A stretch of DNA of 64,000 nt. It comes from Sipunculus nudus (lineage: Eukaryota > Annelida > Sipuncula > Golfingiida > Sipunculidae). This document shows, in pieces, positions 32,636 through 61,544 of this stretch. Location of the stretch: positions 25,076,401 through 25,140,400 of the forward strand of contig CM049317.1 of assembly GCA_026874595.1 (NCBI GenBank), in the 5' to 3' direction. The notes beneath the pieces are model-generated. The model ran no database searches. It was not told where the DNA came from and was given only the letters and a program-made list of their open reading frames with translations. Numbering within the stretch: the stretch's first letter is position 1; each line of letters begins with the position of its first letter. A program made the translations under genes and the position numbers.

Positions 32636-34045
32636 GGCAATAAATAAAACTCGGAAGTCGGAAGCCCTCGGAAGTCGGAAGCCGTTATAATTTTTGATAT
32701 AATGTTAAAAATAACGATCATACCAACACTTTTTCGTGTTAAAATGGAAGATATAGACCCCCTTTGCAAAACCAGAAAGTCGCACAAACGTATATTCCCA
32801 TATATGAAAATCAAAGCATTTTTAATGCGTCGGAAGCCTCTCGGAAGTCATCCTGAGGTGACAGATGATGTTCAAAATGCATAAAACTCGGAAGTCAAGA
32901 CCATATAGCACCAACCAAAAATGACACAGAAAAAGTCTGGCATAATTCCAAATTTTAATTTAAGTTATATTTATGTATTTGAATGAAACCATAACGTATA
33001 TTACTAATTAAACATAATAATATATAAAATAGAAAAAATAAATGTTGAAATATGCATTCAAATGTAATACATTATATATCATATCGCGACGTAATATTTT
33101 AATATGGAATGTTATTTCTAATAAATATAATATAAAAGCATTTAAAATTTCGTAATTTTATCAAAAAGGTGTGATAATTTTTTTCCTTATATAACAAAAT
33201 AGATAAGAATATTTTATCATATAAAAAAAGTTAAGTATTCTAAATTAATTTGTATTATAATATTTTTACATAATAATATTCAAATATTTGATAAATACAT
33301 ACTTTTTTAATATTTATTTTATCATATAATATAATTTAATATCAAATTATATCGATGTTGAATGAATATATAATTATATCGTCATCTGTGTTATTTAACA
33401 CATTATGTATACATTTTATTATACTTGTATTATGTAATTATATTTTGCATCATATATGTATTTGTTCAATGAAAAAAATAGAGAATACCAAAACAAATCT
33501 GTATTGTATTATACTTTTTTTTATTTATAATTATAGTATTTTATATTCATGTTTTATATTTTAATATGAATTTATATATTATGTTGTTAGTTATATACAT
33601 TATGATTTTATTCAAATACATTAATATCACTTAAATTAATTTTTGGGTTAATGCATATATTATTTTGTTAGTTATATACATTATGATTTTATTCAAATAC
33701 ATAAACATTACCTAAATTAATATTTGGGTTGATGCAAGACCCTTTTTGTGTCGTTGTCGGTTGGTATACTGTGGCTTGACTTCCGAGTTTTATGCATTTT
33801 GAGCATCATCTGTCACTTCAGGATGACTTCCGAGAGGCTTCCGACGCATTAATTATGCTTAAATTTTCATATATATCAATATATATCTTTGAAACTTTCT
33901 CGTATGAAAAAGGGTGTCTATATCTTCCGTTTTAACACAAAAACTTGTCGATTTGTTCGTTATTTTTAAAATTATACTAAAATATAAAACGGCTTCCGAC
34001 TTCCGAGGGCTTCCGACTTCCGACTTCCGAGTTTTATTTATTGCC
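32636..34045. mobile_element. Mutator-like (MULE-type) non-autonomous element
   Basis: The left arm (32636-about 32955) begins GGCAATAAATAAAACTCGG. The right arm (about 33725-34045) is its inverted copy ending CCGAGTTTTATTTATTGCC, so the inverted repeats are ~320 bp. Both arms contain GGAAGTCGGAAGC-type tandem words. The element is flanked by a perfect 9-bp direct repeat CTCACTATT (32627-32635 and 34046-34054). Long TIRs with a 9-bp duplication are diagnostic of the Mutator superfamily. The ~770-bp interior is extremely AT-rich with no transposase. Arm identity is high but clearly diverged, so it is not brand new. Confidence 0.8.
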
Positions 34046-34790: not shown

Positions 34791-34806
34791 ATTGCTCATC
34801 ATTAGC

Positions 34807-41217: not shown

Positions 41218-41305
41218 ATGGTGATGCATGTAGAACTCCAGGCAACTTGCAGTGCCCTTGGTTACCAGGAAGGAAACGTCTACCACAGAGAACCGGACTG
41301 TTTAG
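41218..41305 (+). CDS. TIMELESS: TIMELESS coding exon 1 (residues 1-29)
   Basis: The ATG is in optimal context (CACCATGG) and is the first after an in-frame TGA at 41197. It reads [20 protein letters not shown], matching the human N terminus. A second ATG follows at 41224. Donor g|gtaaaa; one base carried over (codon 30, GAA). Confidence 0.9.
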
Positions 41306-44300
41306 GTAAAATATGTGGTTAACTTGTCTTTGTTGTTTTTTTTGTATGCGTTTCTATCTTTGAATTGTTTTTGTTATCAGGTTTTGTATGTCCATGGGGT
41401 CTGAACAAAGTACTCATAATTTTTGTGTGGTTGTATATGTGAAATTCTAAGTTACCTGGATCATATATTTTGGACCACGAAAGGTGGTCGTAATTGATGG
41501 GTTGGTCTCAATTGTGGGGTGGTTGCAAGGCAGGGTTTTGCTGTATATTGTACCGTGATAAGTGCATGGTACTTCTTAAATTATATTAAAAGCTTAAACT
41601 TAGAGAAATTTCACTGTGGCTTAAGAAACACTTAAGGGAACACACTTTTATTTATTAATCCCTTGATGGTGCTTTTTGGTATTTTGGCTTGACAATACAA
41701 TACAACTGCTTGATCCAGTAACAATCAGTCCTCACCAGAGGATTGCTCTGCAGGACAAAATTAAGTGAGAATGTTGAGTAGCTTGCCTATGTATAATAAT
41801 TTTACCATGCCATGGACAAGGACAATATGCCTAGGACTTTCTTCTGAAAGGAGACCCAACAGATCATCCATAGTCTAGTATTCTAAGATTATTTGGGTGT
41901 ATGGATATGGTTAGAAAAAAATATTCTTCTGTTCTTAACTTTGGCAGCACCATTCAACTCATCATCAGTTAATATCTTGGAATGCCTTATATGGACTTCC
42001 TTAGAAGGAGAAATATTTAATATACAAATGTGTTACTACAGAAACAGTCAAGGATTTGATCCGTTACCTGAAAAAGGAGGACGAGACGTGTGACATTCGA
42101 CGAGAGCTCGGTGAAGCTCAGATCCTGCAGAAAGATCTTCTACCAATCATAAAACAGCACAACGAGGACCGCATCCTCCTGGAAACTGTCATAAGGTCAG
42201 TGCTGGTTAGAGAACACCAAAAATAACATTACAATATATTCTAAAAACATCCAAATTTTATTATTTAATTTTCCATGGTGTATCACTATATTGAATATAT
42301 ATGCTTCACGTTTTTCTTGATTTGAGGAATATGTGCACAGTACAATATTATGTGATCACGTCCTTTTTAAAACTGCATTAATATATACTTGTACAGGGAT
42401 GTGCTCAGAATAATTTGAGTGCCAGGCGGGGGGGCCATGCACGTGAAATGGGGGGGGGCACGGGATATTTAAAGTTAAACTTTCATTTTTTATAGACGTG
42501 ATTTGTGATATTTCAGCTGCATGAATAAATCATTAGTAATACTAAAAAGTATTATTAATTTCCAAAATGCCGACAGCAATGCCGCCACTGAGAGCAAATT
42601 TTATTGTAAAAGTTAAAACATTGTGGTGAACTCATCTGTCAGTTCAGATTCTGTCGCGTGTCGGTCAGGATTTGTTGAATACTTCCATATAATATGGTTA
42701 TAAGAAAGGACCGTATTCAATTTTTCACGCTTAAAACCTGATACCAAACATCATATTCCACTTTTCTACGGCAGTTTGGCCTCATTAGGAACTTTGACCT
42801 TACAAATGTTTTCGAATATTTACGTCGATCATCAATTATATTCAATCAAACATCGTTTGGCGCGTCATATGATTTCATAGAAGCTGATATCAGCATTAGT
42901 CTTTTATACAGATACAAGGTGGTGCTACCATAGCAGCTACGTTTACTTCTTTTGTACCAAATTTTATTCATCAACATTCACTTAATACGGCACATTTTGA
43001 AAGAGTACCTTCTATTAAATATTCATTTTGGGCGCCACTGGATGTCATCTAGTGTGAAAGACTTAGAAATATTTGACAGGGGTCACTAATTGTAATACCG
43101 GTAAAACACCGCTAAATAAGCTTAAATGTGTGTATTTTTGTTCATGGCTTAAACAATTTAAAAATATTACTGCCAGGCAGGCATTGCCACTTTACAGTCA
43201 AGTGCCTGTTTGTAAAGTCATGAAATTAGGTGAACCCTGCATACCTCATTTATTTTAAATGTAACCCTTCAAATGGTAATGAATTAATTTAGTATTGTTC
43301 CCTTTTTTAAATAATATTTGGTTTATGTATATCTGCAGATTGTTGGTTAACCTAACACAGCCTGCAGTCCTGTGCTTTCAAAACTCCATACCAGAGGATA
43401 AAACAACACGTCATCACTACCTGGACATAGAGTCACACCTGCAGGCTTACAAGGAGGTAAGTCTCATTAACTGGATATAGTGTCACACTTTCATGCCTAT
43501 AAAGGTGAAGCAACATTACCTGGACATAATGTCACACCTTCCGGCTAACAAGGTTAGTAAAACTGACTGGAAATAGTGTCACACCTGCAGGCGTACAAAG
43601 AGGTGTCTCTCATTACCTGGACATAGAGTCACACCTCATGGCTTACAAAGAGGTGAGTCTCATTACCTGGATATAGTGTCACACTTTCATGCTTATAAAG
43701 GTGAAGCAACATTACCTGGACATAATGTCACACCTTCAGGCTAACAAGGTTAGTAAAACTGACTGGAAATAGTGTCACACCTTCAGGCGTACAAAGAGGT
43801 GTCTCTCATTACCTGGACATAGAGTCACACCTGCAGGCTTACAAGGAGGTGAGTCTCATTACCTGGATATAGTGTCACACTTTCATGCTTATAAAGGTGA
43901 AGCAACATTACCTGGACATAATGTCACACCTTCCGGCTAACAAGGTTAGTAAAACTGACTGGAAATAGTGTCACACCTTCAGGTGTACAAAGAGGTGTCT
44001 CTCATTACCTGGACATAGAGTCACACCTCATGGCTTACAAAGAGGTGAGTCTCATTACCTGGATATAGTGTCACACTTTCATGCTTATAAAGGTGAAGCA
44101 ACATTACCTGGACATAATGTCACACCTTCAGGCTAACAAGGTTAGTAAAACTGACTGGAAATAGTGTCACACCTTCAGGCGTACAAAGAGGTGTCTCTCA
44201 TTACCTGGACATAGAGTCACACCTGCAGGCTTACAAGGAGGTGAGTCTCATTACCTGGATATAGTGTCACACTTTCATGCTTATAAAGGTGAAGCAACAT

Positions 44301-47300
44301 TACCTGGACATAGTGTCACACTTTCATGCTTACAAGGGGGTAAGTCTGAGTCAAAAGAGGTGAGCTTATTTTTACTTGTGAACTGTAAGCTTACAGCTTA
44401 AAATTGAATAATAGCAGAACTAAGCAGATACCATTAAATATTAATGAGAAAACACTCTATTTCATTTATCTGACATACCCAGTATATGAATGGGTCCCTG
44501 TAATACACGTTAGAAAATGTAATAGTCTGCTTAAGAATATTATATAAAACATTTGCAGGTCAGGCTGTTACAGCTTTTAGCTTTGTTTATGTCCAGTGTT
44601 TTATCCTGTGGTTTGTGGGTGTAGCTTTTTACATTACTTGTATTGCAGACCTTTGCTGATGAAGCTTTGTTTGCTGTGCTGACAAAGAAGCTAGGAGACT
44701 TGCTTCAGCTGGTAAGTCAGTAATCCCAGTATCACATCATGTAAAAGGACATCATATCACAGCTTGTAAGTAAGGTGCCAGATTCGGAGCAGAAGGCCAG
44801 GGAAACATTAATATGAGAATAAATATTTGATTAAAATTAAATTTTGTTTTACTTTTTTTACTGGAATTTGAAACCCATGAAATTTATTTAGAGGATAACT
44901 GTTTAATTGATTTTAAAATTAACATTGGCCATATACATGTTTCATGTTGAAACACCAAAAATGTTAAACATTTATTTAAAGGACTAAAAGTTTTAGGCAG
45001 ATGGAATATAATTTATTGATATAATCTAATTGATTAAGGCCAGTGCAGGAGATCTGGTAGACTCTAGTTTAATTGCCACCATGCATCTAGCAAGGAGTTT
45101 TGGGATGCTTATACAGATAATATAATGATCAAAGTTATTATCTCTATAGATGATTCATTGCTGCCTCAATTCTTCAGTCTGTTAATGAGTAACAAATTTA
45201 TTACAGGATTGGGAACACAGACAGGAGGAGGATCGACTGCTTATTGAACGGATCCTGATCATCGTGCGGAACATTCTCCACGTGCCGCCCAACTCATCCC
45301 GGGAGCAGGTACAACATGGTGGCTCTCAGAGAGCACACACCTCACCTGTCGTATGATTGATCATATCAACATTGTTACAATTATTGACTCTATAAGATAA
45401 CAATCATTTTACCTTTATGTTGTTTTGCACAAGAAGACTAGTTTAGTTTTATCCCAAATTGATTGGTGGTTCTGCAAGTTCATCTACTGGATACACTGGC
45501 CTATTTTCTGAGAGATTGTGCTGCCATTGCCCCTTAATAAGATGATAATGTTAAATTTCTCAGGGTTTATAGGAAAATATAGAAAATGAAACCCCTTAGA
45601 ACACACTTGGCATCAACATTGGCATTTTTCTTGAATTCAGATAATAATATCTTATGGCAAGAAGTAATAGCATGTCATAATATGATGAATTTTTCTTATG
45701 ATAAGATAATATATCTTTGTTTTATGAAAATCTAGAAAGATTTTCTTGACTTTAAGCATGCTGCCTATAAATATATTAGTCAAGAAAAAATTATCCTTAG
45801 CATTTCTTGTCGACAGAAAATGTTCTTTAGTTTAGAAGTACAATTTTATTTCTGGCAGTGTGAAGCTAATCTGATGCTGTCAACTTGTTTCTGACCAGTG
45901 ACATGTCACTTATGGTTATATCATACCTCTTGTTCACGAAAAGCTAAATTCATTCATGTGATCCTTATCTCAAGGATAATGACTGTGTAACATTTCATTG
46001 AAAGTGAAACCTTTTTGAGATCAACACAGCTCAGACTATAAACATCATGTTATTGATATAAAACATTGATACAGTGCTGAATATTTAATGCCCTCGGTTA
46101 ATTACTAATTAAATATTGCACTCATATTGCACTCCATAAGCATCTCTCATAAGGATCTGCCTCTCTGTTCAATACATTTACTGTGGTAGGCTTCATATTC
46201 AGGAAGTTAAATTTTTGTGATTTTCACTTTTTCATTATTTATCGAGGGTTCCATTTTTCTGATCTTCCAAAGCAGTAACTTATACAAAGTATATCCGCAT
46301 TATCACATAATTTGATTAATTGATGAGGGCCTACATGAATGAATAGAAATTCTTGATTCCTGTAGGCAGATAATATGAAAATGTGATATTATTTGTAAAA
46401 TAAATGCTTTTTGACTCTAACATCTACAGGCATAGTGACATGAATATTAGAAAGGCATAACATGTAAATGGGGCTATATTTAAATGACCTGTTCACCTGT
46501 GTAGATGAGATGTCTTATTCACAAAGGTTTCATTTTTGCTGAAATTTCCCATTTGCGAATTTTCCACATTTGAAACCCTTGCAAACAAAAAGACAACTAC
46601 ATTATTAAAAGAAAGAGATAAATTGATGGATCTAGTCTAAAAGCTACACTGCCAGTAAAATATGTTTAGTCATTTCTGGAATATTTTTTTTATGTTTGTT
46701 TTTTTTTTTTACTTCCACAGAGGACAGATGATGATGTGTCAGTTCATGATCAAGTTTTATGGTAAATATAATTACTTTTACAGTGGTTGAATCAAATATA
46801 ATATATTCCTAAAGAGTCATTTGGTCCATAGTGACTGAGAGAGTTTGTACTCAACCTAGAAACCTGGAATACTCATGTATATTATAAAAGACTTTTCCAG
46901 ATACTGGAAAACCTGGAAAAAATGTGAACAAACACACACAAAAACAGGAATTGACGCATACCTTCCTGGCCGTGGTAATAACAACAATTTGTTAACTTAT
47001 CCCACAGGGCACTGCATACCAGTGGCATGGAGGATTTGTTGTTGTATCTGGCCAACTCTGATGATGAAAGAAGTTTTGCTTTCCACGTTCTTGAGATCAT
47101 CACACTGATGTTCAGAGAACAGGTAAAGCTGAAAAAAAAAATAATTACATCATACTTTGACATGCATTTTATTTATACAAAATTTTGTGATATTATCTGA
47201 ATATTATAGAAAATTTTGAATATTTGCATTTCATTAATATGAAATTTTGATTATTTATTAGAATATCATTAGAAAACTTATCAGGAATTGTTGACAGAAA

Positions 47301-50300
47301 TAGCACCATTCTCCTTGAAAAACAAATATAATTTACAGTTTTTAAATGATTTTGCTGTAAAATTTCATTTTATGATTAATATTGTAATGAGTTATTTTAT
47401 TTATTGGTGTATTGAATTAATGATATATATTGTAATGTTATTACAATTTAGTTATTTTATTCAGCGTTCTGTCATTCTGTTTTGTACTTCATATTGTAGA
47501 CACCACAGCAACTTGCAGATACAGGAAGGGCAAAGAGCAGCTCTCAAAAAGAGAAGGAAGAGAAGTATGTTTACTTTCACTGTTGATTTCTTGCTGGTTT
47601 CCAAATCTTAAAGACGGCCATTCACCTACTTTTTCTATAAAATGTGTGTTATTTCTGACTTACTCTGTGGAGATATAAATTAATTCTAGGTAATTCCTAT
47701 TGAGAAAAGGCCTATAACACGGTTACATGTCTGTCACGAATGTTTGAGAGGTTTTTTAAGTGTTCAGTGGAGTTTTCATTTGCAATGTTACATGCGTGAA
47801 AAATAGTTGTTCCCATGTGTTGCTATATGCATGATTTAGCAGGATCATATGGTACAGAGGACTTAGCATGCTTTCCCCAGAATAGATGCTGGAATGAAGT
47901 TGATTTTTTTATGGGGAATCCTTGAGTTCACACCAAAACTGTAGCAATGTTCGAGCATGTACACACTTGATGGATATCTTGGCAATTATTCACCCATGCT
48001 GAGCTCAGGGTTCCAAATTTGCCATATTACTGAAAGAAGAATTATAATGGTAATTAAAGGGGCCTAATCCCCTGTAAAGCATGTTGAATTAACACCAAAA
48101 ATAGCTTCTTCCCTTAAAAATAAATTTGTGCCTGCAAAAATTTTGCCCTGAAACTGTTTGCTTGCTCCTGTAAAAAACAGTGGACTGGGGGCGATGACAG
48201 ATGTTAAAATAAACACAGTGCATGCATCGCCCATGGACACAAGATGTATCAAACAGATGATGCCCTGACTGATTTGGCCTAGAAAAATGTAATACATGAT
48301 CACGCTGGTTGAAACATAACATGTTGTGGCTCACAATCTTACCTCTGGTCATATGCCCGTTGTTATGGTAAACAGACACACATGGTATGTGTTTACAAAC
48401 AAGCAGAGCCATAATAAGGTGTTGAACAGCTGTATGCGAGGAACTGAGACTGTGTGCTGCGATGGTTTTGCTGGGAAACTTTTGTATAAAGCAAAACTGA
48501 ACCGATAGTTGAAAAGAATAGGCACAATATTGCTATATGTCCCTTTAAACCTTTCAGAATAAGACGCCCCAATTACACAGGTGAACGTCAACTTGCACTG
48601 CAGCCTCATTTTCATTGTAAGCATCTGTGCTTGTAGCATCACAAGGGAAAATTTGGATATAATTAATATTAACAGATCTTTTATGATATCTGTATGTCAG
48701 TGATTGATATTATGAATCAGCTGAGATCTTTTGCATTATTGACCTATAATGAAAGAGATTTGCAGCTCATTTGATGTTCCTCATGACCTCTGATATTAAA
48801 AATCTTTGAGAACATAAATGTTTTTCCTACAGTTTAAGGAGATATTCTCTGTAATTAACTGTATGGTGAGATCATGAAAATGGCACCATAAAAAACTCTT
48901 ATAATTGGAAATCACCAACTTTAAATATTTCAAATAAGAAGTCAATCACAAATTATCCAAGCACATATAAACACAGCGTTAGGTCAGTTGACGGTAACTT
49001 TTTTATTTTCCACACATATACCAACATATTAAAACAAATACATTATAAATATTTATTCTTTATATCTTTTTTACAGACGCAAGATAACACTTAAAAATGT
49101 GATTGCTACATGATAAGGATTATTTGAATTTGAGATAGTAATTGAATAAAATAAGCCAAGTGTGTCTGAAATTAGTTATTGTAGATATTAAAAATATTTA
49201 AATTAAATTTCAGAGAATTGGAGTTGTTGCGAGAAAAGGAACGGCAAGAGAAGAAAGCATCAGCATTCAAACTGAGTTCAAGGTATGTCACAGTCGTTGT
49301 TTTCAACTAAAACAAGTTTGCATTGGCCTGCCAGTTGTCAGAAAAATCCACAAAAACAAATAGACCCAGGTAAAATCATAACTTCCATGGCATGAACAGC
49401 CAGTTGAATAACATTAATAAGGTTTTTGTCATGTTTTATACATCTTTCCAAATCTGACCTTATACTTTGTCTTCATTCAATTGACAGTGTCCACTACAAG
49501 CCATTGAACTCCTTTTCCCAATTGTTACTCTACAGTAACCTTTACTTTGGAATGCTGAAGAATTTCAGAACTTTAATTTCTATATTTTAAATCTGTTATT
49601 TAATGTTTCTATATTTATTGTTTTTATCTCCTTTTTATGAACCTAATGTAGACAGGTCATATAATTGCATACCCAATGTCCGTCCGTAAACTTTCAGTGT
49701 CACTGCCATTACTTATAAGGGCTTTGATGGGGTTTAACAGATTTCGCTGTAACTGCTTACCAATTAAATATCTTGCCAGAGTATGATTCTGGGCAAAATC
49801 ATGCATATTTATTGGGGTCAGAGGTCACCAGGCTCCTTTGTGGTGTTGCTGCCATAACTTACCATGAATATGATGGATTTTGATGAAACACAGCAGAAAA
49901 ATTAACCAATATAAGATCTTACCTAAGTAAGATCCTAGCAAAGTCTACACATATTTATTTAGGTCAGAGGTCACAAGACATAAAACAAGCCTAATATGCA
50001 CTCTTTTGGACCTCTCGTTTATATTGAGATTTTTTCTCCTGTTTTGTAGGCATTCTCGGTTTGGTGGAACTTTTGAGGTAAAAAATATGAAATCTATTAG
50101 TGATAGGAATGTCATCTACCATAGATCAGTTCTCAACTCCAAAGAAATCTCATTTGATCATAACAAAAACCATAAGAAAAAACCAAAGAACCGGCGACCA
50201 ATCAAAGAAGACAAACACACTCGACGTTCAACGCTGGCTATTCGGATGTTCATGAAGGAGTTCTGTGTGCAGTTCCTGGAAAACTGCTACAACCCACTCA

Positions 50301-53300
50301 TGTATGCTGTTAAGGTTAGTTTGATTAGCTAAGTTTTTTATATAATACATGGTGGTACCACTCCACCTTTGTCATGGAACTCCTCTGTGGTCACATCTCA
50401 GATATGCATGTTCTTAACCTGTTGAAAGCAATACCAAGCGTGTCCTAAGGGGGTTAGATATTTTCCCATAAATCATTTAAAAAAATATTGTTTACCAGGG
50501 GGCTATCACAGTTTAGTGTAATTATCTACAGTCCCATGATAATTTTTCATTCTTGCTGACAGGAGCTTTGAATATTAGAGGACATATAAAAAAAAATCAC
50601 CTTTGAATAAAGGGAAAATTTTCTAGGAAGAAACAGGGATTTGCCCCAAAATAGGCATTGGCCTGGGTGCTTTTTTCGTCTTGTCAAAACAGTATATCAA
50701 CAGGATGGATAATGCCCATGGTGGCCTAAAATGTGAAAATTTGCTGGAAAAAATTCATTCTAAACCTAAGGACATTCAGGGTAATATCACAGGGTTTATT
50801 ACTTTTATTGCTGGGTCGCCTGAAATTTAGAGGAAATGGAAGTAATGTAATCAGAAATAAAGTGATTTATTTCATGGCACGTTTAGTTTTGCTGTGAAAA
50901 ACCTGTACAGTCACAACCACTTATTTAAGCTCAGCTTGGAAGATGAATTAATAACTTAACAATGGACCCATGGGTCACAATGCTCAGCTTTTTAGCAAAT
51001 GCAAAACACACTTACTGTATTTGATGTAATAGGCTTCCCTAATGAATTTTTATGGGTTTTTGAGAAAACAGAAGGAACAAGCCCTTCTCCCTTAAAAGTT
51101 TTGGTAGTACTTGCTGTTGGTTTGCCACCTGGCATGAAGACTTTGTTTGTGTGCTAAAAATGTTCATTCATATTACTCGTAAATCTTCCAAATGACCACC
51201 ACATGCAGTTATAAGTCCTTATGGTTTTGCTGTATTTCAGGATGCATTAGCAAGGTCCAAAGCTCAGGAGAATGACGAGACTTACTACTTGTGGGCTATG
51301 AGGTTCTTTATGGAATTCTCCAGGAAATATCAGTTCAGGGTGGACATTATCAGGTAAGAAAAACGCTGCATCATGTAGACCCTCAGAGTAAGTGTTGATA
51401 TATGTTCGAGTTTTTTTTTACAAATGTAAGTTTTGACTGCACACATCAGATTTACGCTCCATTGTTATTCAGTGCATTCATCCCAGGTCTCCTTCTTTGT
51501 AACTGCAGCCTTGTTAAGCAAGGTTCTCTGGGTCTCCGCACCAGGGCTTGCACAGAGCAAAGAACTGTAATAAAAACAAAGAGAGCATGGTATCACATTG
51601 TGCATTCAGCTCCAAATTTTGAACATGTGACACCAGCTCTCATTGGTCTGATTACACCAGTTCTAGCACAGAGCCAAGAATATTTTATTCTCTCTTGTCT
51701 TGTCAGAATTTATTAAATTAATTTTTGATGATCAATCGTATAACTTTATACAGAACATCCAGAACTTGACCGTGTCCATTTCACCACTGCTAGCGATTGA
51801 GTGAGGCCACTTCCCTGCAGTCACTTTGGGCCAAACAATCAGGTGATATTAATTGTAAAAAAAAATTTTAAATCTAGTGCAGTAGAGCTTCGTTTTTCCA
51901 AAAGCATCGGGAGACAAGCTTTCTGTTTGGTCAAGGTTCTAGCGGCAAGTTCTTTCGACAGTGAATGATTAACTTAATGCCATTTTTTCCGAGAAACACA
52001 GTGTTTCTTTCGATCTACATAATTGATGACCAGGACATATAAAAGACATTGGATTATTGCCGAGCATAATTGGCAAAGATCAGGCCAACCTGCTTTTAGG
52101 ATATGTGCATGCCATTTTTACATCAAATTTACCAGAGGGGAAGGTCAGATGACATTACCATGGAACACAGTGTTTCTTTTTGATCTGCTTAATTGACAGA
52201 CGGGACATATAAAATATATAGGATTTATTGCAGAGCATAATTGGCAAAGATCAGTCTAATGTGCGTGCCCTTTTTCCATCAAATTCACCAGAGGGAAAGG
52301 TCATATGACATCACCATTGGTGAATCTCTGTTAGTTTCTTAAATAAGCCAACAGGCGGCACCAGTGCAGCATAGGCAAAACAAATGTAAGGTAGTGGAAT
52401 ATAAAATGTATTGAATGATCGCCAAGCCTTCCAATTAAAATTGATGATTATAATTTTCAGATCTAAAGTAGGTTTAATCTTAATGAATACCCTAACAAAC
52501 TTTGCATATATCAAAGTTATTTGGCCTGACATCTTATCCCAAGCCAACAAACTATGCTTACTTGAGTACAAACAAGATATTGTTCATTACACACAAGTGC
52601 TTCTAGATAAACTGCTCAGTCCCTTGCTAGGGGTATAGGGAGCTGAGCGTTGTGGGGCGGCTAGCTGTAGTTTTCATACCTTTGCCCCTCTGAACACATT
52701 GGTCCAGAACTAATTAATTAGGGTAACCACTGGGCTAATACACGTCTCCAGGCCTTGTTACTCGTAATTACCAATATTCATTTTAGGTATTTACATACTT
52801 GAAAAATATTTAGTTAATAATTTTTCGGTTCCTGTTTTAAATTATTGGAAAAACAAATTTTTAGAATTCGGCATTTAGAAAAAGGGGGCTCTACTGTATT
52901 TTAATGTTTAATCTGTTTATACTGCATAAGATTTAGTCATTATGTAAATAATATTTTAAGAATCACCCACATATGTTTTGTGTTTATTATTATGTTCATT
53001 ATAAAGCACTTTGTAGCACTCTTTCAGTCAAAACATGTTATAATAATGATATTAATAATAATAATCAGTGAACATTGTAATCTAACGGTTACCTTCATCC
53101 TTATTCAACAGACAGTGCCACCTACTGGCCATAGACTTATATTTAAAAAGTATGAGAGATGTTATGTTTTCCCTTGCCTGTTGTATGTCTGTCTGTACAC
53201 CTGTCTGTCTCGCTGCTTGTTTTTTAAAGATACCTGAAAAATAACCTAGGAATATCAGGGATAGTTAGAGAAAAGGTGCACCTTGTTAAAAAGAGGGAGT

Positions 53301-56300
53301 TGATTACATTTTTGCATTGTATCTTGGACTACACTGTTTGTACATTTGTTTTGTGGAATTCCCATTAATTTTAAGAGCACACAGTTTTATCAAGTAACTC
53401 ATCCTTCACCTGAATTATTATTTTCCAAAGCATATTTGTAAATAAATTGAAATACCCAGTACAATTCAGTGAATCATGAACATAATTCCCTCCAGCTTAT
53501 TTGCATTCTGCTGAATTTCTATCAAGCTTAGGGAGCTATGCTTGTGTCCCTCAAGGTAACCTTAAAATATCTTTAAGTGAGACCATGTATTTGGTTTGTG
53601 TTTTACAGTGAGACCATGTATTTGGTTTGTGTTTTACAGTGAGACCATGTATTTGGTTTGTGTTTTACAGTGAGACCATGTATTTGGTTTGTGTTTTACA
53701 GTGAGACCATATATTTGGTTTGTGTTTTACAGTGAGACCATGTATTTGGTTTGTGTTTTACAGTGAGACCATGTATTTTGTTTGTGTTTTACAGTGAGAC
53801 CATGTATTTGGTTTGTGTTTTATAGTGAGACCATGTCCATGCCGACCTTCCACTACGTACAGGTTCAGATGATTCATTACCAGGAGATGATTATGACGGA
53901 CAAGAAGCAGGCCCTTATCTGGAGCAGAAGGTACTGATGATTATACTATGTCATCATTATGAAGGAAACAGGAGCACATTCCTCCATTAAAACATGTAAA
54001 TCCAGACAAAAATTATTTTAGAGGCAATTAATTTGAAATGAAAAGTAATAACATACCAGAAAAAAGTCATGAATATTTCATAAAATATACACTGATGCCT
54101 CAATGAACCTGATATTCAGCACTCAAACCTCATGTTACCTTATGTAATGGGATGCTTATTAACAGACTACATCTATCGCTGCAGGCATACTGTGAGCTGC
54201 TACAGACAATGTTTTGTGAAACAGTATGCTTATTAACAGACTTCATCTAGCAGTGCAGGCTTACCATGAACTGCTACAGATCATGATTTGTGTAATAGTG
54301 TCTTTATTTACAGACTACATCTAGCACTGCAGGCCTTCTATGAGCTGCTACAGATCAAGTTTTCATGTAACAGTGTGTTTATTTACAGACTACATCTAGC
54401 ACTGCAGGCTTACTTTGAGCTGCTACAGAACATGTTTGGTGTAAAAGTATGTTTATTGCAGACTTCATCTGGCACTGCAGGCTTTCTATGAGCTACTACA
54501 GATCAAGTTTCGTGTAACGGTGTGTTTATTTACAGACTTCATCTAGCACTGCAGGCTTACTATGAACTGCTACAGAACATGTTCCACATGGACAGATCAG
54601 GTGATAAACAACTCAGAGAGAGTGCTAAGGTACTCAAAGGTAAGTTATGTATTACACAATCTGTTTATCTCAATGTATTCCATGATATCAGCTCTTTACT
54701 AAGAATGGCGCTTTGTGGCTAAGCTTTGGATGTCTATTTTATAATTGATGGTGGTGGCATTGGACTTTTGTCACAGAACTCCTCTCTGGCCACATGTCGA
54801 ATATGCACGTTTTTAGTTTTGTACTTTCAGGAATGATGCAAGTGTGTCCTAAGGGATGTGAATGGCCTGAGGCCCCCCATGGGGTTCATACAGCATTAAC
54901 TTATGCCTTATTTATTGCTTATTAATTCAGAAATCAACTGAATACATGTTATTCCAAAGCTCTGTGGAACAAAATGTTCACCTGGCATGGGTGTGTTGTT
55001 GCTGTATCTATCAATATTACCGCAAAATCTCCACTTAAAACCACACTTCCGATTAAAACCGCACCCAGACTTTGCCGAAACCCCAGGTGAGACACCGCGA
55101 GGGGCTCAAATACTAAGAACCCCCCTTTAAAACCGCACCAACTTTCGCTAGGGAATGATTTGACACAAGACACAATCATGCTATCATCAAGAAATCAACA
55201 CGCGTAGGTTGCGACTCAGACATTCCTGTATACTATAAAATTCCTTGGGCATTTTATTCAAACACATCAAAAAACTTTTTTTGCAGGTTCACTCAAGCAT
55301 GGAGTTTGGGAAGACGCAAGGGCCGGTGAACTTCCGTGTGTTTATACAGATTTAATATGCCGTGCCGTGTTCTTGATTATCCATTATATTTTAGAAAAAT
55401 GTTCTGCTGATCCATTTCAAGTCACTGTATATTTTAAGTCTAAAAGTAATATTTTGAAATCTTAATCTATGATGAAATTTCCATTTTCTTGAATTACTCA
55501 GAAGATTCAAATTATTTTCATACCGGTTACTTCGGTATTATCATCGTCACATTGTATGTTGACATCGCTCCATGTCACACTTTGCTGGTGCGTTTGAAAA
55601 CATGCCGGTCAACTTAACTAAGTATAAAAGTAACTGATGTTATCTTGTCAAGATACTCACATATAGGAAACTTGACACGTGAAAACAAGTAATTTTGTAG
55701 TAAAATTAAAGTGGCCAGCCGGGGTAAGCAAGTTTTTTTATTGAAGAAAGTTTCCATGTGGGGAGACATTTTGTCAAGGCAGCGTTGCGCAAGGCACACT
55801 GGGACGGGATAGGTGGCTGTTCTGTTTACCACCCACCGAGTACAGCAGCTCTAAATATTCTTAGCAGAAGTGTTTAAGCACATTGCGGCACTCAATCTTA
55901 ATTTTAAAACGAACGTCCCCCATTGTGCGACCCTTTACGACTCAGTTTTTTATTCATTTTACGTTTCAAACAAATACTGTGGTTGCCTTTATATTGGCGG
56001 GGCTGAATTTTCGCGGTTTTTATATTTTTAAAAGTTTCACGGGGTTCCTTTTTCGCGCTCTATCATTTGTTTAGTAGTATATTTCATTATCAAAAATAGT
56101 TTCATTTACCGGTGATTTCACTGTTATCTGGGTCTCCTATTTCTCTGTCCGGATATCGCATGTTTGAACATTCACAGACGGCTGAGCGGACGCCTGCGGG
56201 AAGCATTGACCCCGCTGGCTGTAATTAGTTCAGGGCCGAGGCTCATTAAAAACAACTCAAATGTTATTAAGGTGTGTAGAGAAACCAACCTGTAACTACA

Positions 56301-59300
56301 AAACGGTATATTAAGTTTGTTTAGGGAAACTGTCTTGATAAGGGTATCTTACTCCTGTTAATTAAAAGTCGAGTCGTAATCACCTGCTCAACCAACAAGG
56401 GACGTCTGTAGGTAGCCCCCTTGTTTAAGTATCAAAGGCAGGGATGTGCCCAGAATAATTTGAATGCCGTTTATATATGTTGCTAATTACTTCCATACAG
56501 GTGGAAGAAGGAACCGTATTCAGTTTCTCACAGTTAAAATCTGAAGCAAAACATAATATTCCACTGTTTTAAGGCACTTTGGCTCCAAAATGAACTGCGA
56601 CCTTTCAAATATATTCAAAACTCACGTCATCATTAGCCAATCATACATCGTTTGGCGCGTCATGATTTCACAGAATTAGTCTTTTATACAATTACAAGGT
56701 GGCGCAACCCTAGCGGCTATGTTCACTACTTTAGTGGCAAATTTTATTCATTAACATGACTAAATACGGCACAATGTGAACGAGTACCTTCTACTCAATA
56801 TTCATTTTTAAGGGGCACTGGATGTCATCTAACTTGGCACACATACACGTAATTTTTAAATATTACTGCCCAGCGGGCATTGACACTTTCCAGTCATGTG
56901 CCGGGGGAAAGGAATAACTGCCGGGCGCGTCCGCTGGAGTTAGAACGCACCTGCAAAGGGTCCCGGTTTTTTGCATCAAAGCCAACCGATATTATTTAAA
57001 ATGGGCCCAGCATTCTCCCTGAATCATTTATCGTATATGCACCAAGCTCGATGGACAATCACTACGTAGCTGAAGATGAATATCAACTGTCGCAAACTAT
57101 CGGCAGCTTCTGGAATTAATGATTATGGTCTGGTATATGTGCATTCAAAACTGCGCGGTTTCATTTTCGCGGTCAGGGAGCGACCGCGAATATCGCGAAT
57201 TTGAAACCACCGCAAATAAGAAGACAACTACAGTAATCGTTGCTAAATAATGCCGCAAATGAGTTTAAAGTAGGCATTTATTTTAATTTTGCTTGACAAT
57301 GCCCAACAAAGTGGGCCGCTGTGTTACAGAAGGGGTGTTATAATATTTAGTGACAATTACCAAGATTTTTATAATAATTTATATATCGCACGATATATAA
57401 TCAACAACATTTAATTTAAAATTACAAATAATCATAAATAATAAATTTACACACGGCTCCCATGCATGCGAGACTGCTGCTACGGGTGGCCTTCGCAAAT
57501 CCTCATATATTCGCCGCCTGAGCCTCGCCGGCCCAAAAACGATGTCTGCCGGGAAGATATTCAGGAAACCCTTCTAGTAAAAACCGCACAGAGCTTTCTG
57601 GAAAACAACCTGATTTCAAGATTTTTAATTTCTTGATTAAACCGTGGTTTTAAGTGGATATTTTACAGTTAAATAATTTAGCCAGTCTTCATTATGACAA
57701 AGGGCCATCTGTTGTATTTGGGATGACATTGAACTGGTCTACAGTTGCATAATAATGGATGGGTAGGATTTGCTAGTTGTCACTAAAGGTCTCCAGGCTT
57801 GAATTCATAGTCGCATGAAATGGTTCATCCCAAAAGAACTTGGGGAAATTTCTTATGGTGTGTCAAGAAAAACCTTTCAGTTTTCAATTTTGTATGTCTG
57901 CTTTTTTAGCTCAGCTGACTATAAGTCATCTGAGCTATAGTCGTGGTCCTTTGTCCTCAGTCCGTCCGTCCGGCCATCCGGCCGTCCGTCCGTTAACAGG
58001 GCACATTTTAAAACCGTTGGACCTATGAATCCAAAATTCTGCATACAATTCTGTCCCCAAAATCTCCTACCATACCAAAAATAGGGTCATTAGGACTTCG
58101 TTCCTTCGAGAAATTAAGGAAAAACCTCTTTTTTCCATAAAAAAGTCATTGTTACACTTCAAAGCTACCTAATATCAAAACCACTGATCTGTTTTTAATC
58201 ATATTTAGTATTCATATTTTTCCATACATTTTCTATGCACATACCAAAAATTAGGTTAGTATTGGGTATTATTTTGAAGTTATGGGCCCAAATATAATGC
58301 ATTTTCTTAAAAATCAGGAAATATATTTGCTCACTTAACATGAGAATTGCTGAGAATGGAGACTTTTTCAGGAATATAACTTTATTTAATCAAGATTCAA
58401 TTGTTTACCCAGATTTTGATCTGAATTTTGCAAATTTTTCAAGTTATTAGCATAAATAAAAAATCAGTACCTTAAATTTTGGCAATGGCACGTTTTTTCC
58501 CTGTAAGCACTGTTGATTTAATTTTCACAGCATATATACATAAGGATTTAATCTTTTGAAATCTGAAATTTCAAAGGAATTGTTTGAAAAGAGTAGCTTT
58601 TATTCAAGTTTTCATACACCATGTCAAGTGTTGTTTACATCTGGCCCACCTAGTAATACAGTCTTCACTTGCATTATGTAACCCACCCCAGGCAGCTTGC
58701 CTTGGCTTAGCTTGGCCACTACTAGCAGGCTTCCCCTCTGCCCTGCACTCCCACCCCCCCCCCCCCCAGCTGCTGCATAAACTAGATGAATGTTATAATT
58801 TTCTGTATTTTATTTTATTTTTGGCTATACTACATTTTAGATTTTGTATTGTACCACCAGGGTTACAATTATTAAAGTGCACATTTAATTGTGTCCACAA
58901 AGTGATGTATTGCTATGAAAGTGTGGATGTTCATCAGAGTGCTCATTAAAGATTTTAATTTGTTTGACTTATAACTCATGGTTGTATCAGTTGTTACATG
59001 ATACTGGCTAAATAATCAAAATTTATATTGCTGATCCTTTATTTCAGTTCATAAAATTAAACATTCCCAACTCCAGTTTGCTCCTGGTATAATATATTGG
59101 GTGTTTTGATCCTTGGATTAATTTTAACACATGTATTAGTTTCATAGTTGAGAATACTTTTCTTTTTTCCTGATACCATTTAAATAAATAAAAATATTTA
59201 AATTTTTTCCTGTTAGTGCTGTGGATTTAATTTTCACAGCATGTACACATTAGCATTTCATCTGTTAAAATCTGAAATTTGAAACTAATTGATCAAAAAC

Positions 59301-59462
59301 TGTAGATTTTATTCAAGTTTCCAGGTACCAAGTCTTCATTGTTTACATCAGGTCAGTATAAATGCAGTGTACTGGGCAGTTACATAACACCTTCAGGTCT
59401 GACCTACTGCCACTGTGAGTGTCTGGGTCAGGCTGGGTCAGGCAGTATTTACCAGAGAGCCT

Positions 59463-59505
<43 letters not shown>

Positions 59506-59542
59506 CAGTCCAGCTCTTTCTTTCTCTCTCTCTCTCTCTCTT

Positions 59543-59616
<74 letters not shown>

Positions 59617-59642
59617 CTCTGCTTTTTCTCTTTCTCTCTCCA

Positions 59643-59705
<63 letters not shown>

Positions 59706-61544
59706 CCCTTATTGCCTCCCTTCCTCCCTCCATCTCATTCTGTTGACAGGTACTATAAACTAGATACATTAGCTATAAATGTTGATGCAATTTAGAAATG
59801 TGAATCAACTGAAATATTCACAATCACATGTATGTTATACTGTAAATTTATAGTAACATTCGTAAACCTGGATAAAAATTATGTAATGAAAAAAATGAAT
59901 AAATGCAAATATTGTTAATTTTTTATTGGCTCAGTAGAATGGGGAAAAAATGATTTGCTTTGTTTCTCCATCTTTCTGTCTGTTTTAAATATTTAATGTT
60001 CATGAATAAACTTTTTTTAAAAAAAAAAAAGCACTATTGAATTAAATTTCATATCCTGTATGTATATGCAAGGGTGTTGTAACTCTCACCATCCCCTTCT
60101 TCATCCCACTGAGGCTTTGCTCCTTGGCACTGTGAACAATAGTTCTATGGCTATAGCATAAAATAAATAATTAAAGAAAATATCTGCAGAGAGACTGATC
60201 ATAACACAACCCCCCCCCCCCCCCCCCCCCAATCAAGTCATTGCACCTCTGGAGTGGGGACGTTATGGCAACTGTATACATATCATAAATTTGATAAAAA
60301 AAGGTTTACCAAATAAATTGGATCTCATCAGACAAATGTGTAAACTGTTGAACTGTCAACAGCTTATCAAAAATGTAACCAATGGAAAGGCATGCTCAGA
60401 TCTCAAATATTATTTGCAACATTTTCTTCAATCATATAAACCAACCATGGTAATTACCTCTTCCTCTCAAACTTTATCTACATTTCATCATATTTTTAAT
60501 ATTTTAACCTTCTAGGTGGTTCAGTAATGTTGACCATTTGTCCATAGGTACCTATGTACATGCCAGAAATTATGTCAATATTGTGTTATATGTAGACATG
60601 AGGGTCATCAAAATAATGTACCTTGTCAAGACCGATCTTGTCAAGATATCATGTCATACAGTCACAAATTCATAAATCCCCTCATCAGCATAGTTAATCA
60701 TAACCTTGTATCTGTCAAATTGAAAGCTTGCAGTTTTCCATACACTATAGATCCTTCAACAAATAGCCTTATCATCATTATACCACTGCTTAGTATACTG
60801 TCATTGCATTCATATTTGCTCAAATAAATTGTTTTTTTTTTCGACCCCTCCCAAATAAATAAAAAATAAACCACTATATTTTACTCCATATTAATCCATC
60901 AGTCAGATTATTTCATATATCATTTACTCACATCTTACATTATATTCCTTTATAAAAGCCCAACATGACCATGATATTCATAAGCTTTTTCTACTCAATA
61001 TAGTATAACAATGGTGATACATTTATTGTCCAATCATGATCAGCTGAGCGCCGTGACCTATGGGTCCCTTGTTTTAATTCTTTTGCCACCCTTTTAAATG
61101 AAAATATCCTATTCATTACAACAGGTAATAATGTTATTAGTTTTTACAGATAATATACTTCATCTTCTTCTGGTAAAATTAATTTACCATAATATTCCTC
61201 TTTTTTTTAGCTCAGCTGACTTTCAGTCACCTGTGTTTCATTGCTTGTTGCTTTAACTTAAGCTAATATGCATGAATGATGATGCCACATATATTATCTT
61301 AATTAGTTGCCTGTGCAAGGACATATTGTCAACATGTCAGCAGCTGAGCGTCATGACCCATGGATCACTTGTTATTTTTTTACAGGCAACATATTTCATT
61401 ATTTTCTACAGATAAAGGATTATTTTTCATTTTCTACAGGTAATACGTGTCATTATCTTCCACAGGTAATGTGTTCTACATGATGGAATACAGGGACATA
61501 TTCCTGGGTCTCCTGAAACAGTTTAATGAGACGAGGCAGTCTAG
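41218..61544 (+). CDS. TIMELESS: TIMELESS (timeout/Tof1 family), 14 coding exons, 3' part beyond window
   Basis: Joining the 14 exons listed separately gives ~493 codons without a stop; all introns are GT-AG and phases match. Seen in sequence: [20 protein letters not shown] near the start, [14 protein letters not shown], a [20 protein letters not shown] segment, [42 protein letters not shown] and [19 protein letters not shown]. These align colinearly with human TIMELESS (about 1200 residues). This is the TIMELESS N-terminal domain (to ~residue 290) and the following helical-repeat region. Known role: with TIPIN, AND-1 and CLASPIN it forms the fork protection complex on the CMG helicase, supporting fork speed, checkpoint signalling and cohesion in the nucleus. 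The high similarity to the vertebrate protein indicates timeout rather than insect circadian TIM. The C-terminal region (PARP1-binding domain in human) is not in the window. Confidence 0.95.
41306..42041 (+). other. TIMELESS intron 1
   Basis: 736 bp with GTAAAA donor and CTACAG acceptor. It contains a GACCAC-type MITE right half at about 41465-41547. Confidence 0.85.
41465..41547. mobile_element. GACCAC-family MITE fragment in intron 1
   Basis: 'ttttggaccacgaaaggtgg' through 'tcaattgtggggtggttgc' and 'gggttttgctgta' matches the right half of the complete MITE at 3895-4072. The left end is lost. Confidence 0.55.
42042..42195 (+). CDS. TIMELESS: TIMELESS coding exon 2 (residues 30-80)
   Basis: Encodes [15 protein letters not shown] through [16 protein letters not shown]. 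Acceptor ctacag, donor ag|gtcagt. Two bases are carried to exon 3 (Arg81). Confidence 0.95.
42398..43250 (+). repeat. Dispersed repeat in intron 2, also in intron 13
   Basis: It starts GGGATGTGCTCAGAATAATT and contains 'aaggaccgtattcaattt', 'catcgtttggcgcgtcat', 'acaaggtggtgc' and 'cactggatgtcatctag'. The same order occurs at about 56444-56950. G7 and G9 runs sit near the left end. No terminal inverted repeat or coding frame is seen. Confidence 0.6.
43339..43456 (+). CDS. TIMELESS: TIMELESS coding exon 3 (residues 81-120)
   Basis: Encodes [20 protein letters not shown] then [16 protein letters not shown]. Acceptor ctgcag; donor gag|gtaagt at 43457. The last ~45 bases and the donor are the founder of the tandem array that follows. 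Confidence 0.95.
43412..44345 (+). repeat. Higher-order tandem array grown from the exon 3 donor
   Basis: Four related ~49-bp monomers (types A-D) form a 196-bp unit. The A monomer (CTGGACATAGAGTCACACCT..ACAARGAGGTRAGTCTCATT) recurs with GAGTCACACCT at 43430, 43626, 43822, 44018 and 44214, exactly 196 bp apart. Copies 1, 3 and 5 share 'ctgcaggcttacaaggag'; copies 2 and 4 share 'ctcatggcttacaaagag'. C monomers alternate likewise (ttccggctaac / ttcaggctaac), giving a 392-bp superperiod. Copy 1 is the real exon 3 end. Every A copy keeps a donor-like GAG|GTRAGT. Confidence 0.95.
44649..44711 (+). CDS. TIMELESS: TIMELESS coding exon 4 (residues 121-141)
   Basis: Encodes [20 protein letters not shown] + L. 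Acceptor ttgcag, donor ctg|gtaagt; phase 0 at both ends. Confidence 0.95.
45207..45308 (+). CDS. TIMELESS: TIMELESS coding exon 5 (residues 142-175)
   Basis: Encodes [20 protein letters not shown] then [14 protein letters not shown]. Acceptor ttacag, donor cag|gtacaa; phase 0. Confidence 0.95.
45309..46720 (+). other. TIMELESS intron 5
   Basis: 1.4 kb, AT-rich. A short repeat-like segment near 46530-46610 ('atttgcgaattttccac', 'aaaaagacaactaca') resembles 57160-57240 in intron 13. No exon-like sequence is seen inside. Confidence 0.6.
46721..46761 (+). CDS. TIMELESS: TIMELESS coding exon 6 (residues 176-188)
   Basis: A 41-nt exon encoding [13 protein letters not shown] plus two bases of Trp189. 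Acceptor ttccacag after a T-rich tract; donor tg|gtaaat. Confidence 0.9.
47008..47122 (+). CDS. TIMELESS: TIMELESS coding exon 7 (residues 189-227)
   Basis: Encodes [20 protein letters not shown] then [19 protein letters not shown]. Acceptor cccacag, donor cag|gtaaag. Confidence 0.95.
47500..47564 (+). CDS. TIMELESS: TIMELESS coding exon 8 (residues 228-248)
   Basis: Encodes [20 protein letters not shown] + E. Acceptor attgtag, donor aa|gtatgt; the split Lys249 is completed by exon 9. Confidence 0.9.
48054..48548 (+). mobile_element. TTAAAGG-ended MITE in intron 8
   Basis: A 495-bp segment from TTAAAGGGGCC to GTCCCTTTAA with short inverted ends. 'taaacagacacacatgg' and 'gcgatggttttgctgggaaa' match the copies at 20.69-21.18 kb and 1.85-1.98 kb. 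Apparent ORFs here on both strands are not conserved between copies. Confidence 0.6.
49214..49282 (+). CDS. TIMELESS: TIMELESS coding exon 9 (residues 249-271)
   Basis: Encodes [20 protein letters not shown] + SS, a charged helical linker (human has ELEVLRQREMAEKK). Acceptor tttcag, donor ag|gtatgt. Confidence 0.95.
50050..50314 (+). CDS. TIMELESS: TIMELESS coding exon 10 (residues 272-360)
   Basis: The largest exon seen. It begins with the signature [20 protein letters not shown], continues through a basic stretch ([20 protein letters not shown]) and ends [14 protein letters not shown]. The basic segment could act in DNA contact or nuclear import; that is inference. Acceptor ttgtag, donor aag|gttagt. 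Confidence 0.97.
50940..50990 (-). mobile_element. Helitron-like 3'-end fragment in intron 10
   Basis: On the minus strand the segment reads GCTGAGCATTGTGACCCATG followed by GGTCCATTGTT. This matches the right end of elements A and B with the same GACCCATGGGTC palindrome. Only the end is visible. Confidence 0.5.
51241..51353 (+). CDS. TIMELESS: TIMELESS coding exon 11 (residues 361-397)
   Basis: Encodes [20 protein letters not shown] then [17 protein letters not shown], with the conserved DETYY.WA..FFM.F core. Acceptor tttcag, donor ag|gtaaga; Ser398 is split. Confidence 0.97.
51880..52896. mobile_element. Tigger/pogo-like MITE in intron 11
   Basis: The left end CAGTAGAGCTTCGTTTTTCC is mirrored by a right end whose reverse complement starts CAGTAGAGCCCCCTTTTTC. 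TA follows at the right (52897-52898) and TG precedes at the left. TA-targeted CAGTRGARC termini are typical of Tc1/mariner Tigger/pogo elements. No transposase. The inside holds a tandem duplication (51995-52330). Confidence 0.6.
51995..52330 (+). repeat. Two ~169-bp direct repeats
   Basis: 'aacacagtgtttcttt' starts at 51995 and 52164. Both copies continue with 'gggacatataaaa'-like words, 'agcataattggcaaagatca' and 'accagaggg'. They lie inside the Tigger-like element. Confidence 0.8.
53577..53835 (+). repeat. 31-bp tandem array containing the exon 12 acceptor
   Basis: GTGAGACCAT occurs at 53577, 53608, 53639, 53670, 53701, 53732, 53763, 53794 and 53825, exactly 31 bp apart. The unit is GTGAGACCATGTATTTGGTT then TGTGTTTTACA. 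Seven internal copies end TTTTACAG; the ninth, which leads into the real exon 12, reads TTTTATAG. Only two point differences (ATAT for GTAT, TTTTG for TTTGG) occur in the middle copies. Confidence 0.97.
53826..53930 (+). CDS. TIMELESS: TIMELESS coding exon 12 (residues 398-432)
   Basis: Encodes [20 protein letters not shown] then [15 protein letters not shown] (human SETLSVRTFHFIEQ...). The acceptor is the last TTTTATAG of the 31-bp array. Donor ag|gtactg; Arg433 is split. Confidence 0.93.
54160..54580 (+). repeat. ~74-bp tandem array of the exon 13 acceptor and exon start
   Basis: Six acceptors of the form TTAACAG, TTTACAG or TTGCAG end at 54165, 54239, 54313, 54388, 54461 and 54535 (spacings 74, 74, 75, 73, 74). 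Each is followed by a copy of ACTTCATCTAGCACTGCAGG and a sequence coding for an (R)[13 protein letters not shown]-like peptide in its own frame. The sixth is the real exon 13 start. Copies have diverged more than in the exon 12 array. Confidence 0.95.
54536..54639 (+). CDS. TIMELESS: TIMELESS coding exon 13 (residues 433-467)
   Basis: Encodes [20 protein letters not shown] then [15 protein letters not shown] (human RMHLALKAYQELL..MDISPD..VRESSRIIK). Only this sixth copy joins to an open downstream frame. Donor g|gtaagt; Gly468 is split. Confidence 0.95.
55016..57671 (+). mobile_element. DNA transposon-like element in intron 13
   Basis: The left end TTACCGCAAAATCTCCACTT (then AAAACCAC) and the reverse complement of the right end (AACTGTAAAATATCCACTTA then AAACCAC) form a ~30-40-bp terminal inverted repeat. 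The 2.65-kb interior includes segments found inverted at 62.27-64.0 kb (55380-55990 with 63100-63700; 57235-57370 with 62985-63110). It also contains the dispersed repeat shared with intron 2 (56444-56950). No transposase frame was recognised, so it is non-autonomous and unclassified. Confidence 0.55.
56444..56950 (+). repeat. Second copy of the intron 2 dispersed repeat
   Basis: Begins GGGATGTGCCCAGAATAATT and follows the copy at 42398-43250 in order ('catcgtttggcgcgtcatga', 'ggcactggatgtcatctaa'). The two differ by several indels, including loss of the G runs at the left end. Confidence 0.65.
59461..59702. repeat. Long (TC)n microsatellite
   Basis: About 240 bp of TC with short interruptions. 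All three plus-strand frames and one minus frame appear open only because of the dinucleotide repeat. Confidence 0.95.
60210..60230. repeat. C21 homopolymer
   Basis: The equivalent position in element A (38534-38548) holds C15, so the run has changed length since the copies diverged. Confidence 0.85.
61110..61465 (+). repeat. Acceptor-like repeats before exon 14
   Basis: Segments of the form T-rich..ACAG|GYAAYA or ACAG|ATAA end at 61124, 61149, 61385, 61411, 61439 and 61465. The last four are spaced 26-28 bp and each is followed by an AT-rich 'cattat' block. Only the last is the exon 14 acceptor. A 160-bp mini Helitron-like element (61212-61371) interrupts the series. Similarity between units is low, so an old array is likely but not certain. 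Confidence 0.5.
61212..61371 (+). mobile_element. 160-bp mini Helitron-like element
   Basis: The left end TTTAGCTCAGCTGACTTTCA and right end CAGCTGAGCGTCATGACCCA, then TGGATCACTTG, match both ends of elements A and B, but almost all of the interior is missing. It lies 140 bp downstream of element B in the same orientation. Confidence 0.6.
61466..61544 (+). CDS. TIMELESS: TIMELESS coding exon 14 (residues 468-493)
   Basis: Encodes [20 protein letters not shown] then ETRQSR (human [22 protein letters not shown]). Acceptor ttccacag, donor ag|gtgaga. No following exon was found before 64,000. Confidence 0.95.

Follow-up and report, generated by a model that had tools for sequence, protein, structure and literature searches.

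Tandem arrays across exon-intron junctions of TIMELESS in the annelid Sipunculus nudus, and their likeness to the mirages of amphioxus

At three exon edges or more, the TIMELESS gene of Sipunculus nudus runs into a tandem array whose repeating unit crosses the splice junction itself. These arrays are real, and they are neither unknown as a kind nor special to TIMELESS. We consider it probable (roughly 0.74) that they are mirages, that is, minisatellites whose founding tandem duplication happened across an exon-intron junction: their units carry exon, intron and splice signal together, they differ in unit length and age, and several unrelated genes of this annelid bear them. The window (the whole 64,000-nucleotide stretch of DNA that was analysed) is situated on C12 of an assembly of 1.43 Gb. 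A 14-exon TIMELESS model built from its sequence gives a stop-free protein of 493 residues, which matches the Pfam family TIMELESS (PF04821, 2.6e-74) and aligns in a single stretch with human TIMELESS (7pfo_K; query residues 2-490, one-residue gap, 5.9e-183). Beyond the window, tblastn finds four further TIMELESS exon matches, reaching 67.8 kb in window numbering. In a tree of 22 TIMELESS sequences the protein clusters with annelids (support 95/98), placing the host of these arrays outside the cephalochordates; its best identity is 72%, followed by 69% to Ridgeia and Lamellibrachia, and identity to the lancelet protein is 59%. Searches for RNA of this animal brought up none. No Rfam element reaches gathering score within 41000-64000. 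The features to which the text refers are these:

41218..61544, + strand: TIMELESS, exons 1-14, by gene model; the gene extends past the window
43339..43456, + strand: exon 3, by gene model, with authentic donor GAG/GTAAGT at 43457
43411..~44340, + strand: array 1, exon 3 donor, 19 units of 47-50 bp with higher-order periods of 196/392 bp, by TRF and unit comparison
53572..53836, + strand: array 2, exon 12 acceptor, 9 copies of 31 bp at 97%, by TRF and unit comparison
53826..53930, + strand: exon 12, by gene model, with authentic acceptor TTTTATAG/T
54152..54583, + strand: array 3, exon 13 acceptor, 6 copies of 73-75 bp at 81%, by TRF and unit comparison
54536..54639, + strand: exon 13, by gene model, with its authentic acceptor
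61378..61480, + strand: array 4 (probable, degenerate), exon 14 acceptor, units of about 26-28 bp with AG, by AG-anchored copies
61466..61544, + strand: exon 14, by gene model, with authentic acceptor CCACAG/GTAATG

In arrays 1-3 the repeats extend into the intron, with a complete copy still attached to the exon. Each of the 19 units of array 1 contains the end of exon 3 and the GT donor; those of array 2 hold the 3' intron end, the AG and the first 11 bp of exon 12; those of array 3 comprise about 25 bp of intron end with its AG and about 49 bp of exon 13. The splice dinucleotide has been retained in 19/19, 9/9 and 6/6 units, respectively. The initial annotation, made from the letters of the window, had reported arrays at the edges of exons 3, 12 and 13 and a probable one at exon 14, and had given the period at exon 3 as 196/392 bp; that array stands, and its period proves to be a higher-order one, the 47-50 bp units being grouped by fours (196 bp) and eights (392 bp) with a self-identity of 0.958 at lag 196 and 0.982 at lag 392. 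Its 31-bp array at exon 12 and its ~74-bp array at exon 13 are borne out by the copies listed above, and the differing unit lengths bear out the separate origins that it had proposed. Its ~27-bp array at exon 14 is supported in part: two AG-anchored copies lie upstream of the acceptor (15/24 and 16/24 matches, at spacings of 26 and 28 bp), a result that 0/500 dinucleotide shuffles yielded, yet TRF did not call the array. On local alignment to neighbouring DNA, three of the 27 TIMELESS junctions tested score at least 45 and 24 fall below; the exon 14 acceptor, at 28, is inseparable by that measure from the exon 9 acceptor, at 27, and all 23 junctions of exons 1-14 outside arrays 1-3 and the exon 14 acceptor, that of exon 9 among them, stay under 30. 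TRF called no array with a period of at least 10 and a score of at least 60 across 61.0-78.2 kb, the region of the four further exon matches. The arrays differ in age: identity is 97% in array 2, 96% at 196 bp in array 1 (74% between its 50-bp units) and 81% in array 3, and array 4 is too diverged for TRF. Array 1, the one array on which this was tested, has undergone concerted evolution, its inner copies homogenised and its edge copies excluded: GTAAGT occurs in copies 1 and 19 only, and GTGAGT stands in the four inner copies that share the type of copy 1. Close to array 4, a repeat family starting AGCTCAGCTGACT has copies at 61203-61389, 34802-34828 and 57902-57932, with a short copy directly upstream of the array; beyond the family's copy there, at 61125 and 61150, are motifs like those of array 4 that fall below the match threshold.

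What would happen if the spliceosome chose another copy can be read from the model. Just as the initial annotation had held that a single copy per array keeps the frame, 37/37 alternative sites tested lead to an early stop, namely 19 donors (18 within array 1 and one GT immediately past it) and 8, 5 and 5 acceptors in arrays 2, 3 and 4. Such stops are largely expected, because just one copy has the body of the exon attached and most unit lengths would shift the frame; the single 75-bp spacing in array 3 is a multiple of three, and that copy reaches a stop anyway. With exons 3, 12 and 13 the stop comes at least 93 bases upstream of the window's last junction; for exon 14 it falls after that junction, so that decay there would depend on later introns. 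Splice sites were scored with a small matrix derived from TIMELESS's own sites (for acceptors, the 12 others of the gene). The authentic donor comes top in array 1 (10.5 against at most 9.4 for the decoys) and array 3 is even (authentic acceptor 9.3, decoys 5.9-9.7), whereas all eight decoys of array 2 (3.5 for seven of them, 1.1 for the other) exceed the authentic acceptor at 0.8, and all five of array 4 (7.9-12.3) exceed the authentic 5.8. Predicted use of the exon-side copy in TIMELESS thus sits beside decoys that outscore the authentic acceptors of arrays 2 and 4, the strongest pointer to some mis-splicing, if only a hint. It also counts against our preferred explanation, for a view in which the decoys are silent would not predict such scores.

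Arrays of the same build are found elsewhere in the genome. A DNA search of the genome with array 2 also matched C2, at MTTP, where a 27-bp unit, repeated 25 times, runs up to the acceptor of exon 10 (C2:64667882-64668561). The 11 MTTP exons mapped are numbered locally for this analysis, and the identity of the gene is supported by further searches; three open frames tested, including the model's last MTTP exon, matched no Pfam family. Arrays occupy four of its 22 exon edges, with units of 58 bp at the exon 3 acceptor, 77 bp at the exon 4 donor and 27 bp at both the exon 8 donor and the exon 10 acceptor; three score at least 45, and the fourth, at the exon 8 donor, reaches 30 and was picked up by TRF. 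MTTP was reached through one of its own arrays, leaving three of these four unselected, and of its eight TRF arrays four span a junction and four do not. Use of array copies would lead to stops at all four junctions: at every site tested for the exon 3 acceptor (two), the exon 4 donor (three) and the exon 8 donor (two), and at 18/19 candidate acceptors of exon 10, where only the authentic site stays open. A further duplicate, longer and more diverged, precedes the exon 10 array and takes in about 40 bp of the exon.

For an unselected sample, exons of two gene families were collected by family search, irrespective of arrays. Among MCM genes, 26 of 46 matches were examined (loci L020-L045), the 20 left out being bacterial-looking and all on small contigs with open frames of at least 502 residues. 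Arrays are present at 2/52 match edges, both donors of apparently one gene, MCM9; they are the only two arrays in the 26 loci with a period of at most 200 and a score of at least 100, and both are at exon edges. Three weaker TRF arrays (22 and 29 bp, score 85-91) and three of long period (278-337 bp, overlapping loci counted once) lie away from match edges. Among TCP-1/chaperonin genes, 40 of 63 matches were taken, each with 350-bp flanks, leaving out 11 on small contigs, three long intron-free frames and nine others, mostly weak. Here 2/80 match edges, both acceptors, show a duplication, one an array of ~30-bp units (L066) and the other a diverged two-copy duplication that TRF did not call (L072); one of the three TRF-called arrays in these stretches is at a match edge (L066) and two are not (L084, L088). 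Pooled, 4/132 match edges bear an array or duplication, or 3.0% (interval 0.8-7.6%), a rough rate in that match edges only approximate exon edges and may in some cases be inside exons, exons of one gene are not independent, and the edge probe was slid in the chaperonin set and fixed in the MCM set. The small contigs C61-C99 also contain GroEL-like intron-free frames of 547 aa in nine places, plus other long frames, apparently bacterial DNA in the assembly, perhaps from a symbiont.

The TIMELESS models of two tube worms carry tandem repeats as well. In that of Ridgeia a unit of 8 residues, repeated about eight times, starts no more than five residues past DETRQSR, which marks the end of exon 14 in the Sipunculus gene, and a duplicated piece like a read-through intron end lies ahead of TYLKDLVEA. 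In that of Lamellibrachia a unit of 10 residues extends across residues 595-947, between two conserved blocks. Both repeats are in frame and at other places of TIMELESS than those described here. Tandem repeats scoring at least 15 occur in 3/244 proteins, the third of which (P0023) repeats a conserved piece of 52 residues. Read from protein models alone, the tube-worm repeats look like junction arrays translated by gene prediction; on our reading of the letters (DQTVQVSR against DETRQSR) their units may derive from exon ends.

Several known phenomena resemble these arrays. NAGNAG-type tandem acceptors are neighbouring, competing acceptors that shift the product by three bases in frame, whereas the arrays here have units of 27-74 bp and bring in stops. 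The human polymorphism CBS 844ins68 is reportedly a duplication across a 3' splice junction from which normal mRNA is made; it is a single duplication, where TIMELESS has arrays. The closest likeness is to amphioxus, where PMC3087553 and PMC3902484 describe mirages in Adh3, the globins BflGb6 and BflGb9, troponin C and PGBD5 (the last added by PMC3902484, which cites Adh and troponin C) and cite similar structures in presenilin and retinol dehydrogenase genes; arrays of whole junctions, which the initial annotation had believed not to be a described pattern, had therefore been published. As set out there, amphioxus mirages are minisatellite-like tandem duplications across an intron-exon boundary, on the donor or the acceptor side, with many units bearing AG/GT, homogenised inner copies and distinct edge copies, features shared with the arrays here (homogenisation with array 1). 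Units of 10-72 bp in Adh3 and 150-160 bp in the globins are given in PMC3087553, and the Adh3 and globin data presented there suggest that regular splicing is undisturbed. In TIMELESS the units cross the boundary (in arrays 1-3, and only probably in array 4), have minisatellite lengths of 26-28, 31, 47-50 and 73-75 bp, and affect both a 5' boundary (exon 3 donor) and 3' boundaries (exons 12 and 13 acceptors). The present case differs in its annelid host, in three to four arrays per gene and in arrays of up to 19-25 units, and it is known from genome sequence alone. Literature searches on mirages, intron tandem repeats and splicing, with most subscription papers outside their coverage, returned the two lancelet papers only. 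Among annelids, the text available of PMC12783039 reports intronic minisatellites and exon duplications of unknown purpose in earthworm metallothionein genes, not there termed mirages, and that of PMC12130307 puts minisatellites at 2.65% of an earthworm genome with junction repeats unmentioned.

On the mirage reading, a founding tandem duplication would span an exon-intron junction by chance and would be tolerated there, the exon-side copy retaining splice site and reading frame, whereas a duplication inside an exon would be purged by selection. Copies would then multiply through slippage or unequal exchange, the inner ones homogenising and the edge ones staying distinct, with the spliceosome mostly picking the exon-side copy and nonsense-mediated decay clearing mistakes. 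Such arrays would lengthen introns and leave spare splice signals as raw material for new introns. This recalls the Rogers model of intron gain by tandem duplication of AGGT segments, as outlined in PMC4974935 and PMC3087553, in which splice signals are likewise supplied by tandem copies; here, however, existing introns are lengthened and no new intron is shown. What is new is the annelid host, which would take mirages out of lancelets, along with the presence of several arrays per gene and a first, approximate frequency. With about 3% of the sampled exon edges affected, mirages would steadily lengthen introns, create cryptic splice sites and give rise to faulty gene models; the tube-worm TIMELESS models appear to translate such arrays.

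A dedicated role for the arrays in TIMELESS is unlikely. The initial annotation had proposed that they may form poison splice choices tuning the level of the gene. In a rheostat of this kind, decoys would divert a fixed fraction of the TIMELESS pre-mRNA into nonsense-mediated decay. The stop at every alternative site, the unbroken retention of splice dinucleotides in arrays 1-3 and the high-scoring decoys of arrays 2 and 4 would all suit such a rheostat, but almost any intron-side extension would yield stops, and the conserved GT of array 1 is not independent evidence of selection because the inner copies are homogenised. Moreover, MTTP, MCM9 and TCP-1 family genes bear the same arrays, the repeats in the TIMELESS of Ridgeia and Lamellibrachia are located elsewhere, and no array lies near the four further exon matches. 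We regard the rheostat as improbable in general, and regulation specific to TIMELESS is not supported, given the arrays in other genes. Error in the assembly, for which tandem repeats are a known trouble spot, has very little probability, given units that vary in length and by substitutions within an ordered higher-order pattern, and loci on several chromosomes; the lancelet PGBD5 sequence, according to PMC3902484, was confirmed by resequencing data. Just as improbable is a mobile or satellite sequence, introner-like, whose units brought splice signals with them. In its favour, array 2 (53577-53836) and the MTTP exon 10 array have a 13-mer in common, GGTTTGTGTTTTA, just before the acceptor, absent elsewhere in the 203.5 kb examined (including two randomly sampled genome stretches used solely as repeat background). 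The sharing may stem from how MTTP was chosen, as the best other match in 1.43 Gb, for which some likeness is expected, and every unit includes coding sequence of the exon at which it lies. When array 1 was searched against the genome, by a method that skips common words, only its own place matched, and on that ground a dispersed element was rejected as its source.

Whether the founding duplications were blind to junctions is the question on which the mirage reading is most exposed. The initial annotation had offered a local replication or repair tendency as one explanation; a tendency finds partial support, and its locality none, since arrays extend beyond TIMELESS. A mutational process aimed at junctions, for example through breaks or template switching linked to transcription and splicing, is a tentative alternative that we would not favour. 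In the sampled genes repeats cover a similar share of junctions and of intron positions (TIMELESS 3/27 against 96/865, MTTP 3/22 against 132/891, MCM 2/52 against 44/972), the equality with random positions that the initial annotation had set against its own idea; exon interiors of TIMELESS and MTTP are nearly repeat-free (2/119 positions). Each array adds many intron positions, however, so that coverage differs from a count per founding duplication, and, as tandem copies would be inserted rather than laid over flanking DNA, a junction should end up inside an array only when the founding unit had crossed it. Counted in this way junctions look over-represented. For the three TIMELESS arrays the chance per founding is 0.062, 0.040 and 0.093 (4-9% expected for each), and all three span junctions (product P 2.3e-4, in a gene chosen for its arrays); in MTTP the count is 4/8 (P 0.0016), or 3/7 (P 0.016) once the array through which the gene was reached is set aside. 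The only two MCM arrays with period at most 200 and score at least 100 agree, both being at exon edges. Against an aimed process stand the equal coverage, a P of just 0.04 for TIMELESS when whole arrays are dropped at random, the six MCM arrays (three weaker, three of long period) and the chaperonin arrays L084 and L088 off match edges, with one in three at an edge, and the few genes in the sample. A preference of duplications for junctions is thus suggested, not shown; it counts against the mirage reading in so far as a purely blind process does not predict over-representation per founding duplication. Speculatively, and with the same low confidence as in the aimed process, minisatellites of some animal genomes might arise preferentially at junctions, at about 3% of junctions here and by extrapolation thousands genome-wide, through a process tied to transcription or splicing and independently active in lancelets.

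The window holds other repetitive sequence as well. Two arrays of 21-45 bp at 22623-22828 and 23535-23762, about 700 bp apart, have units that are mutual reverse complements (TATCTCGTTCCCACGCGATAG / GTGGGAACGAGATA) and are perhaps the ends of one mobile element. By eye, an A+T-rich stretch at 32641-34040 is flanked by inverted repeats of the CGGAAGTC type and looks like a DNA transposon or MITE, and an open frame at 25937-26596 resembles, on reading alone, a piece of a LINE-type reverse transcriptase.
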